Assembly (NCBI GenBank): GCA_006384855.1
Contig: VCJN01000641.1
Location: 1-64,000, forward strand
Length of the DNA stretch: 64,000 nucleotides
Reading direction: 5' to 3'
From: Tetraselmis striata
Lineage: Eukaryota; Chlorophyta; Chlorodendrophyceae; Chlorodendrales; Chlorodendraceae
The notes under the pieces were generated by a model that was not told the origin of the DNA, did not search any database, and saw nothing but the letters and a program-made list of their open reading frames with translations. The position numbers were made by a program, and so were the translations under genes. Every line of letters starts with the position of its first letter. Within the stretch, counting starts at the first letter, position 1. This document shows positions 23,584 through 30,141 of the stretch, in pieces.

Positions 23584-24971
23584 ATGGTGCGGTTCGGGAA
23601 CAGCAAGGTGCTCAGCGAGAATGGTGTCGAGGAGGTCCCGCTCGCGGGCAGCCCCCCCGCCAAGCCCGCCAAGTCAGTCAAGGTGGCGCCCGCGGTGAGA
23701 CCTCCTCCGCCCCTCTGTTCTCCCCTCTGCCTCCATGCCTCTGCTCTCTGCCGCGTCTTGCTCGGTAAGCTGCTCGCCGCATCCTGACGCACGGCGGTCC
23801 TCTCTGACCTTCGACTGCCTCGTGGGTGTTGTTCTGCAGCAGCCGGACAGCGACGGCGCGCCAGCTTCGCGGCCTGGCGCCGTCAAGATCCCCGCGTCCA
23901 TGATGCCCGGGCGCAGCGTGATGACCGGCGCCAAGCCCGGCGGCAGCACGGGCATGACCACCAACTTCGCCAGCATGCACTGGCGCGACCCGCGCGCCTT
24001 CCGCAGCGAGGAGGGCCGCCGGCGCGAGATAAACCGCGTCGCCTCCAACGCCGGCAACCTCAACAACAAGCTCTTCCTCAGTCACTGCTGGCGCAAGACG
24101 TCGCGCCAGGAGGGGGAGGAGGACCTGCAGGCCAAGAAGCGCCAGATGATCGCGCACCTGAGCACGCCCTCAAAGGTGGGCGGGCGAGCTGGGAACACAG
24201 TCGTACTGTATTATTGTTCATTTTTATATAAAATTCGACCGGGACTGACCCTCGTGGGGTGTGACGCAGGACGGTGGCCCCGGGCTGGTGTACTGGTCCG
24301 ACTTTCTGGACCTGCAAGCGGAGGGGCCGGTCCCGTGGCGCCGCGAGATCGAGGATGCGGTGCGCAGCTGCTCCAAGGTGGTGTGCTTTGTGGACGAGGG
24401 CTGGCTCACCTCCTTCAACTGCCTCCAGGTGCGGCAGCTCGCGCCCCCCTCCGCCTCCCGCAATGCCACCCGATCACGGCGGCGGCGCTCTGACGCACGG
24501 CGCCGCGCTGCAGGAGCTGGCGTTCTCCATCCTGGAGGGCAAGCCCATCGTGCTGCTGGTGCTGGACCAGGAGGCGTGGGAGCTGCTGACGGTGCCGTCC
24601 GGAACCAAGAAGGCCTGGAGCCAGGACAAGTGGGGCCCCGCGCTGAGCCAGTACGAGGACCACGAGATCACGCCCGGCGAGCGCTTTACGCGCGAGAAGC
24701 TGGACAGCCTGTTCAGCTACATCTCGGGCATCAACCTGTGCGCGTGCCGCGAGCTGGAGGAGGCCAACTTTGGCGGCATGCCCGGCCTGATGGACAACAT
24801 GCAGAAGTACGTCATGAAGGACCTCATCTACTTCAAGCAGCACGCGGAGCTGAAGGACATGGCGCGCCGCTGGGAGGCCGGCGACAAGCGCTCCTCGCTG
24901 CTGCTGCACCGCGCCGAGGCGATGAAGTGGGACCTTTGGGTGGAGGCGGCGGAGCAGGTGAGCGCGCGATC

Positions 24972-25008
<37 letters not shown>

Positions 25009-28000: not shown

Positions 28001-30141
28001 GTAATGGCCGTGTGGTGCAGTTGTATGGATGCGAAATGTCCGTCACGTGGTCGGCTATATTCCAGCATCGCTCGTTTGATTTGAGTCTGGCATCCGGCTG
28101 CTGGCGTCGCCCTGGGCAGACGTTACTATGCGCATCTACGGGTTTACTGATCTGTCGGCACTGCAACCTATGGATCATGGACCTGTCGGTCTCATTGTTG
28201 GTCATGTTGGTCGGCCACTACTAAGAAGCTAGCTGCTGCCATGATTACTCACTCCCCCTCCCCGCCAAATTTGTCGATCTGATACATTGAGTGATCTTCA
28301 GCTAGTATTGATGTGTGCTTATGGAGCGTGCATGTAGAGCATTACATGTTCTTGTATGTGACTATACAGACACAGCCACACAATACAGGGATTATAGCGG
28401 CTGCCTGTGTATGTAATATTTATTTTTTTGTGACGGGGCTCGCAAAACGAAATGCCTCACCCCCCCCCCCCCCCCCCCCCGCGGCCCCACTCTGGCCCTC
28501 CCCGCTTGTCGGGCTTACTCTCATTCGTCCGCTGTCGCCGCTACAGGTGTGGGATTTTCTGACCGGGGTGGGCCGGGTGCTGCGCGGCCACGGCGGCGAG
28601 ATCACCAACGTGGCGTGGTCGCCCTTCAACTGCGCCCGGCTGGCCTCCACCAGCCTGGACGGGAGCGCCCGCGTGTGGAATGTCGGCACGGGCGAGTTCG
28701 ACGCCCTCTACGGCGGCGCCAGCGGCGGCACGGATACCACGATGACCGCGCTCGCCTGGTCGCCCGACGCGGCCGACACGCTGGCGACCGCCTCGTGGGA
28801 CGGGAGCGTGGGGCTGGTGGAGCTGTGGGACATGTCGGTGGAGCGGCCGGCGGGGCAGCGGCCGCCAGCGCTTGCGGTCCTCACCAACCGACCGTCCTCG
28901 CTCGCGTGGAGCACCCTCCCGGGCGGCCCCCTCGCCGTGAGCGCCGGCACCACCGTCCACGTTTACGACGTCGCCGGCAACACGCGCCTCCCGGACCTCC
29001 CCGAGCGCCACACACTCGAGGTGCTGTCGCTTCAGTGGTCGCCCACGAAGCCGGGCGTGCTCGTCAGTGGCGGCTACGACAGCCGCGTCGTGCTGTGGGA
29101 CCTCGACACCGGCGCCGCTACCACGCTCCTCGGCCACCAGGGCACCGTGGCCGCGGTGGCGTGGTCGCCGGACGGCCGGAAGGTCGCCACGGGGTCGCCG
29201 ATTGAGGCAGCTGTGCGCGTGTGGGACTACGAGTCGCCGGACCTCGTGCAGGTGGGGACGACGACCCCGCCCGCCCCGCCCGCCCCGCCTTCCGGCTGAC
29301 ATGGCGCCCCGCGACTGCCGAGCAGCCATATCGCTCCCTGATGTACGTACGCGGGTAGTTGTCCTAGTATGATGACACCGCCTGCACTCTGCTTCATTAT
29401 TCATACAGTTCACGTATAATGCTGAATGAATAGAAGCAACACACTAAAGTATGAATTATGCTATTGATGTTGAGCCTTTAACATACAGTATATGTCCGAA
29501 AATGATTATACCCCGACACTATCTATACGTGCTACTGTAGTTTTCACCTGCTCATTTACAAACATTATAGGAGACAGTTCACTGTCTCCTATTTGCCACG
29601 ACGAATTCATTCATTGTCGGTGTCATACCCATTGGGACACGTATACCCCAGTAGTCGCTAATCACATCCACTGCACTCGCAGTCTCTGCAGCGGCTAATC
29701 CTTATATGATAAGGATTATTTCTGATATAATTTGCGCAATGCTGATTTGTCGTGCGATATGATAGTCCGCGCAGCTAGCTGGTTGCGGTATCAAGAAACA
29801 CAGTGGCCGTCTTCCGTCGTCTTCCGGCGGAGGCAGCGCGCGTGTCTGGCGCTCTGACACAACCGGCTGTTCTCCCCCCACACCAGGTGCTGCCCATCAA
29901 CGCAGGGCAGACCGGCGTCTCCGCGCTCTCCTGGTCCGAGGAGGATTCTCTGCTTGTGAGCGTCTCACCGGACGACGCCACCGCGCGCGCCTGGTGGCAC
30001 ACGCGCCGCGACTCGCAGGACTGGGACGCCGCGCTGCGCGACATCCACAGCGGCGACCCCAGCCTGCGCCTCTCGGATCTCACCGACTTCGACCTGCCTC
30101 GCGACATGCTGGCCGACCTCGACACCTTTGAGCTCAGCTAA
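23584..30141 (+). CDS. TIR - transmembrane - coiled-coil - WD40 (14 blades) protein
   Basis: Ten exons join in phase 0: 23584-23694, 23840-24175, 24270-24428, 24514-24957, 25117-25206, 25620-26339, 26460-27080, 27674-27865, 28547-29251 and 29887-30141 (about 1210 residues). Residues ~112-240 form a TIR domain: NNKLFLSHCWR, WRREIEDAVRSCSKVVCFVD, then SFNCLQELAFS. The Glu after CLQ is in the position of the catalytic glutamate of NAD-consuming TIRs. A charged helical linker leads to one membrane helix at ~381-405 (AGLLLALILLGAVASGVMAS). A Gln/Glu/Arg coiled coil follows (~406-470). Then come about 14 WD40 blades (~505-1165), each with a clear tail such as IRIWDL, VRLWNL, VQVWDF, VVLWDL, VRVWDY; that is enough for two seven-bladed propellers. 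The tail is acidic. The layout mirrors bacterial TIR/WD40 proteins without a visible NTPase. Function is probably sensing via WD40 with a TIR effector (inference). Exon 5-6 spacing could hide another small exon. Confidence 0.82.
29567..29592. repeat. Perfect hairpin in last intron of the TIR-WD40 gene
   Basis: The 12-base arms ATAGGAGACAGT and ACTGTCTCCTAT are separated by TC. A second inverted repeat (AATCCTTAT / ATAAGGATT) lies at about 29697-29717 in the same intron (29252-29886). No function is known. Confidence 0.6.

Follow-up and report, generated by a model that had tools for sequence, protein, structure and literature searches.

The window analysed here is a stretch of 64,000 nucleotides from the green alga Tetraselmis striata (contig VCJN01000641.1, positions 1 to 64,000 of the forward strand, assembly GCA_006384855.1), which carries at 23584..30141 a gene encoding a TIR domain, a membrane helix and WD40 repeats on a single protein. 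The gene, like all of its features given below, lies on the + strand. It has been rebuilt exon by exon from start to stop codon and codes for 1210 amino acids in ten exons (23584-23694, 23840-24175, 24270-24428, 24514-24957, 25117-25206, 25620-26339, 26460-27080, 27674-27865, 28547-29251 and 29887-30141). All nine introns are of the GT-AG type and of phase 0; they are 85-681 bases long and divisible by three in three of the nine cases. The G+C content at third codon positions (GC3) is 95%. A coding-potential scan flagged nine of the ten exons, all except exon 5 (90 bases); having been trained on the codons of the gene itself, it is circular as exon support. The closest full-length relative is a protein of Tetraselmis chuii (P0001; UniRef A0A7S1SMQ4; taxid 63592, Chlorodendrophyceae), which we take from its accession series to be transcript-derived. 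Both proteins are collinear from end to end, with 824 identical residues among 1188 aligned ones (69%). Of the nine exon joins, eight fall into aligned stretches with 12-23 of 24 identical residues, where a single one-residue gap occurs, and the first join, situated in the variable N-terminus, is gapped and has 7 of 24. The relative P0002, whose name contains an MMETSP transcriptome number, also has TIR and WD40 on one protein. A single continuous, phase-0 gene of ten exons, as proposed in a preliminary description of this DNA, is thus borne out by the exon-by-exon rebuild, and a split into separate TIR and WD40 transcripts is not, since P0001 and P0002 each cover both parts.

The same assembly contains a second copy of the gene on contig C2576 (locus L111), in which all ten exons are matched, exon 1 over 31 of 37 residues. 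Exons 2-10 of this copy are equal in length to those of the window gene, contain no stop codon and differ at 40 of 3519 bases; moreover, AG stands ahead of exons 2-10 (9/9) and GT behind exons 2-9 (8/8). The copy could represent either the second allele or a recent duplication. When window positions 21458-31621 are compared with C2576, about 1.35 kb (21859-23210) and about 360 bases of intron 8 (27869-28230) of the window have no counterpart in the aligned blocks listed. A dispersed repeat of about 300-450 bases occurs in the window at 21458-21858, 32900-33339 and 60663-60963, which are 86-99% alike to one C2576 stretch.

The protein starts with an extension lacking a hydrophobic segment (residues 1-111, 23584..24061), and residues 1-70 of an AlphaFold2 model of P0001 have a predicted local distance difference test score (pLDDT) below 50. 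The TIR domain follows at residues ~112-280 (24062..24747, exons 2-4). Its presence had been foreseen, but its end was placed at residue 245; it extends to residue ~280, since the TIR-linker region of the algae exceeds that of the bacteria by at least ~55 residues (279-325 versus mostly 221-225 residues). The extra residues were assigned to ~233-271 (24604..24720), where two of two bacterial rows have a gap against four of four algal ones, and a second alignment puts bacterial residues into the same columns. The additional length is firm, its placement less so. The assignment as TIR relies on TIR_2 (PF13676) matches in relatives, on profile matches and on the P0001 model. All five algal relatives scanned pass the PF13676 cut-off of 28 bits (29.3-39.3 bits). 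Furthermore, a profile that combines four algal with two bacterial rows retrieves among solved chains the CRISPR-associated TIR protein Cat1 (PDB 9mud) as best match (E 5e-7), as well as MyD88, and TLR2, plant Roq1 and SARM1 at weaker E-values. The model of P0001 (47 rows, mean pLDDT 76.7, predicted template modelling score (pTM) 0.48) shows predicted strands at 103-107, 145-148, 174-179, 203-207 and 266-268 with helices in between, and places E192 in a predicted helix (187-198) following the third strand. The structure prediction is hence in line with a TIR order of strands and helices and with a glutamate at the expected site. Several observations count against this assignment: the window protein itself reaches only 23.3 bits with PF13676, so that the profile check holds for the relatives and not for this protein; the first TIR search, with PF01582 in the T. 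striata genome, gave no match; and an algal-only profile reaches solved TIRs weakly (8fz9, E 0.16; Cat1, E 0.41). The pTM of 0.48 and the low confidence of the model at the membrane helix weigh against the receptor reading as a whole.

The glutamate position required for NAD+ cleavage corresponds to Glu203, encoded by the first codon of exon 4 (24514..24516). In the alignment, this column holds Glu in all 202 bacterial and seven of eight algal rows, which upholds the earlier claim of a retained pocket glutamate. The sole algal exception, P0002, is likely due to an assembly frameshift, as the stretch reads on inspection like the neighbouring frame of the window DNA. Seven or eight of the eight algal rows and 200-202 of the 202 bacterial rows retain the S-x-x-C-x-x-E and W-x-D columns.

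Downstream of the TIR domain, a helical juxtamembrane linker with a PxPTxxQ/H motif occupies residues ~281-380 (24748..25206), and an algal profile of the linker alone matches 113 of 121 bacterial proteins at E<1e-3. A single transmembrane helix, recognised by hydrophobicity and flanking charges, spans residues 385-405 (25632..25694), which is the one hydrophobic segment of the protein. It is succeeded by a coil rich in Glu, Gln, Arg and Lys (residues 406-470, 25695..25889), for which the P0001 model predicts a long helix at 406-465 with confidence low in part. Overall, a helical linker in the model leads into one long helix that spans the membrane segment, and another long helix and many strands in propeller order come after it. 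PF00400 matches the window protein with an E-value of 1.3e-59 in 11 stretches, and 14 adjacent blades, delimited by eye and verified to be contiguous, fill residues 532-1169. Blades 1-7 (residues 532-850, 26073..27742) and 8-14 (residues 851-1169, 27743..30015; introns included in both cases) would form two seven-bladed propellers. Thus, every part previously listed, from the TIR domain through one membrane helix and a charged coil to some 14 blades, has been recovered. A Foldseek comparison of the P0001 model with the PDB gave 2ymu and WD40 proteins of the small-subunit (SSU) processome on top, and AIP1, Apaf-1 and Gemin5 among the 50 best; the whole model was used and WD40 proteins fill the best 50 rows, so that the comparison says nothing independent about the TIR fold. 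A reading as STAND or NLR receptor with an NTPase was rejected, because the Pfam scan of residues 1-533 detected no NACHT or NB-ARC domain and all 210 rows checked, algal and bacterial, are devoid of the P-loop motif GxxxxGK[ST]. That no NTPase is visible in the protein had been stated correctly; this does not amount to a loss, as the matching bacterial proteins pass from the TIR straight into linker and helix.

The nearest kin of the protein are indeed bacterial TIR-linker-membrane-helix proteins, most of those listed with WD40 repeats. The window protein shows the features of this bacterial group, i.e., a TIR domain with the linker motif, then one helix, a coil and WD40 repeats. In bacterial representatives such as P0007, P0008 and P0129 the order of parts is the same, the TIR, linker and helix are homologous and the P-loop is lacking as well. 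The algal genes differ by their introns (window gene and C2576 copy), the N-terminal extension and the longer TIR region, and in all eight algal rows H replaces Y behind the first strand. According to our own reading of precomputed Pfam lists, 118 of 120 listed bacterial relatives have propeller families, the exceptions being P0015 and P0099. When repeats were counted more strictly, with a profile built from eight blades of the window protein, at least four were present in 58 of 80 loci and in 53 of 122 proteins; some relatives below four repeats are cut contigs, short open reading frames (ORFs) or divergent. WD40 repeats are therefore not demonstrated for every bacterial relative, and a Pfam scan of the P0007 tail gave no match. 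Two or more TIR-linker units in tandem were seen in P0013, P0015, P0051, P0052, P0061, P0062, P0073, P0095, P0098 and P0099. PADLOC assigns P0007 and P0008 via their TIR to several models, ThsB-like and SAVED-TIR among them, and the WD40 part of P0005 and P0007 is matched by a HEAT-ARM model; P0001 matches none of its families, which does not favour a role in defence. No role of the bacterial TIR-membrane-WD40 family turned up in the open-licence literature. Taken alone, the structure of the gene and its bacterial kinship are next to certain.

The gene is not a single curiosity. Besides the window gene and the C2576 copy, a search of the T. striata genome with P0001 uncovered eight more TIR-linker-helix matches (contigs C2495, C1973, C1425, C2154, C801, C1687, C1117 and C2873), all of which match the algal profile. 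Several match piecewise in different frames, as expected from introns, and the nearly identical C801 and C1687 may be one locus. Eukaryotic relatives comprise P0001-P0006, all from Tetraselmis, and P0128, a metagenome protein of algal type. A bacterial-style layout in a spliced algal gene, as described before, therefore stands, whereas the notion of a lone gene has to be abandoned in favour of a family, given the copy on C2576, the eight further places and the relatives in other Tetraselmis. No named eukaryote beyond Tetraselmis was found among the best ~8000 candidates in 5.8 billion proteins; the searches scored the 8000 and 7990 candidates with most shared words, a limit that speaks against a firm conclusion since remoter eukaryotic relatives could be missed. 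A tree of 80 rows was calculated with a quick method, unrooted and with the Shimodaira-Hasegawa-like approximate likelihood ratio test (SH-aLRT) as sole support, using 72 of the 116 non-redundant bacterial rows (of 202) and omitting 44 to limit its size. All eight algal rows cluster together (SH-aLRT 100), with a long stem, no bacterial sister is singled out, and the program flags the letter composition of P0001, P0002 and P0013. A further point against acquisition is that the algae are linked to the bacteria by a long branch in an unrooted tree, which gives neither donor nor direction. The claim that the module was acquired is likely because of its distribution, while a nesting within a bacterial branch is not seen.

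Three explanations for the bacterial look of the gene have to be weighed. Bacterial contamination or a chimeric assembly would explain the bacterial type of architecture, but it was rejected and has a negligible probability in view of the nine GT-AG introns, the Tetraselmis relatives, the second copy and the neighbouring coding stretches, which match the eukaryotic families SLBP and, weakly, NPL4. Ancient vertical inheritance in green plants followed by loss nearly everywhere except in Tetraselmis would be compatible with the long stem and with algae that are not nested within bacteria, yet no other named eukaryote occurs among the best ~8000 candidates and the architecture is widespread in bacteria, which makes this explanation quite improbable. 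A bacterial origin of the algal gene family is likely; an ancestor of Tetraselmis would have acquired it, and the family would then have gained introns and the extra TIR residues and multiplied. A viral origin was also considered and rejected, as no relative was present in phage records or in viral contigs, where none of 22 pattern matches was confirmed. A TIR domain has been reported from Tetraselmis virus 1 (PMC9503650).

The flanking charges allow a prediction of the topology. The algal proteins have 3-5 Lys and Arg residues among the 15 positions that precede the helix versus 1-3 after it, with the larger number before the helix in seven of eight proteins and one tie. Of the 122 bacterial proteins, 112 passed the length and hydrophobicity filters, and the number before the helix was larger in 105, equal in five and smaller in two. 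By the positive-inside rule, these charges would place the TIR domain in the cytosol. Moreover, the relative P0003 (T. striata 437389) contains an LNR/Notch repeat on the tail side (E 2.7e-8, above the cut-off; one gene model), a module that occurs in extracellular proteins. The tail of P0003 (residues ~1570-1993) is also Cys-rich, and a receptor with an added extracellular module is possible. Taken together, charges and Notch repeat make it likely that the TIR domain is inside and the WD40 part outside or in the lumen. In an alternative arrangement, the WD40 part would be a cytosolic or plastid-stromal scaffold and the TIR would serve housekeeping NAD+ or stress signalling at an organelle membrane rather than defence. 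Eukaryotic WD40 propellers are mostly intracellular, and the window protein has two Cys residues after the helix and no enrichment of sequons there (two seen versus 4.7 expected), which speaks against an outside WD40 part; as a topology test, sequon enrichment was discarded as uninformative. The more positive TIR side in algae and bacteria, the Notch repeat and the faster change of the sensor half argue against this arrangement, which we regard as rather unlikely.

The two halves of the protein indeed evolve at different rates. Among seven algal proteins (P0003 excluded), the TIR-linker identity exceeds the post-helix identity in 21 of 21 pairs; for the window protein and P0001, the values are 87% and 64%. 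Between the window gene and the C2576 copy, the non-synonymous and synonymous rates (dN/dS) are 0.0012/0.0278 in exons 2-5 together with the helix, as compared with 0.0101/0.0229 in the remaining part, and exon 9 holds 12 of the 19 amino acid changes. The blades least conserved relative to P0001 are 11 (39%), 9 (48%), 7 (50%) and 10 (51%). Bacterial pairs with a TIR-linker identity above 0.75 have a lower post-helix identity in the 25 of 25 listed of 119, a choice of pairs that is biased toward faster post-helix divergence. These rates would fit a conserved effector with a changing sensor. On the other side of the balance, relaxed constraint on the repeats gives an equally fast change of the sensor half.

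Based on these observations, the protein can be pictured as a single-pass receptor of bacterial design with an outer WD40 sensor and a cytosolic NADase TIR in an immune or stress role, and the odds for this chain as a whole are about even. With its N-terminus inside, the protein would expose the TIR to the cytosol and the propellers to the exterior or to a lumen. Binding of a ligand to the propellers, perhaps to the second one, would change the coil and thereby bring the TIRs together. Clustering activates TIR domains, and the assembled TIRs would cleave NAD+ to a signal nucleotide or, at high activity, cause NAD+ depletion and cell death. According to a previous study, TIR domains cleave NAD+ (PMC7159879, citing Essuman 2018). 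For the algal TIR, the kept pocket residues make NADase activity probable. Alternatively, the TIR could be an oligomerisation adaptor acting by protein contacts alone, like the TIRs of MyD88 and Toll-like receptors; non-enzymatic TIRs are common in animals, and MyD88 and TLR2 are among the matched chains. The retention of the S-x-x-C-x-x-E and W-x-D columns, and of C-x-x-E likewise in Cat1, the best solved match, renders such an adaptor improbable. Returning to the NADase receptor, immune or stress sensing appears to be its most probable function, given a conserved signalling half and a divergent sensor half, and a defence role has a little less than an even chance. A more far-reaching idea, that a complete bacterial receptor became a multigene, Toll-like surface family of Tetraselmis, whose outer WD40 part senses microbes or viruses, whose inner TIR is an NADase and whose second propeller diversifies for recognition, is doubtful.

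Several known systems resemble the algal protein in part. Cat1 shares the C-x-x-E at the pocket position, but it is soluble and CRISPR-triggered, unlike the algal membrane protein. Toll-like receptors are, like the predicted algal protein, single-pass proteins with an outer repeat sensor and a cytosolic TIR; however, they have a leucine-rich repeat ectodomain and a C-terminal TIR, whereas the algal protein has WD40 repeats, an N-terminal TIR and the glutamate. The best reading is that a Toll-like layout was built independently, and we do not suggest that the two architectures share a common descent. TIR-NBARC-WD40 proteins of the red alga Chondrus crispus and plant TNL/TNP proteins also combine TIR with WD40 or other repeats, but they carry an NTPase domain that the algal protein lacks, and no membrane helix is mentioned in the available part of that survey of green-plant TIRs, which lists TIR-only proteins for unicellular green algae and does not report the TIR-membrane-WD40 layout (PMC9806590). 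The Dictyostelium TirBCD proteins are likewise eukaryotic TIRs of bacterial origin, and TirC has a membrane helix; their TIR is close to TIR-STING, and WD40 is not mentioned in the text available (PMC13142454). The authors infer that the TIR alone was transferred or that other domains were lost, and TirBCD and SARM1 are precedents for transfer from bacteria to eukaryotes (PMC13142454). The atlas of that study was built on EukProt v3, and its main text contains neither "WD40" nor "Tetraselmis"; the Tetraselmis TIRs may be listed in its supplementary tables (PMC13142454). No account of TIR combined with WD40 in green algae was found in the open-licence literature. The gene does not represent a categorically new system; it is a bacterial-type module in a spliced algal family. 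While TirBCD, the best-studied transfer that turned up, represents the rewiring of one TIR (PMC13142454), Tetraselmis shares with bacteria the whole layout including the linker coupling sensor and TIR. One coupling device thus exists both in bacteria and in a green alga that can be cultivated, a pair accessible to experiments, and a Toll-like layout would have been reached by a separate route.

Elsewhere in the window, seven of ten coding-like stretches scanned at 5060-18255 and 34813-36392 have a Pfam match (E<=0.01), among them NPL4 (below the cut-off), RNase_HII, SLBP, SMP-30/gluconolactonase and an acid phosphatase followed by a cold-shock domain. The T. striata assembly also harbours other WD40 arrays. 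Long ORFs with near-identical WD40 repeats occur at loci L095, L100, L101, L104, L105 and L115 (contigs C544, C116, C2711, C237, C2068 and others); they have 1374-1489 amino acids on several contigs, and contamination is possible. The one ORF scanned from its start, on C544, contains an N-terminal FLSHQW...VWMDIC segment and NPHP3_N/NACHT (E 5e-17 and 1e-6). ORFs of this type may be an NLR-like set whose repeats are kept alike, and the repeats of fungal NLRs likewise stay alike. Finally, C2379 contains many WD40 matches at 29825-184828, several with internal stops, resembling a decayed array of related genes.
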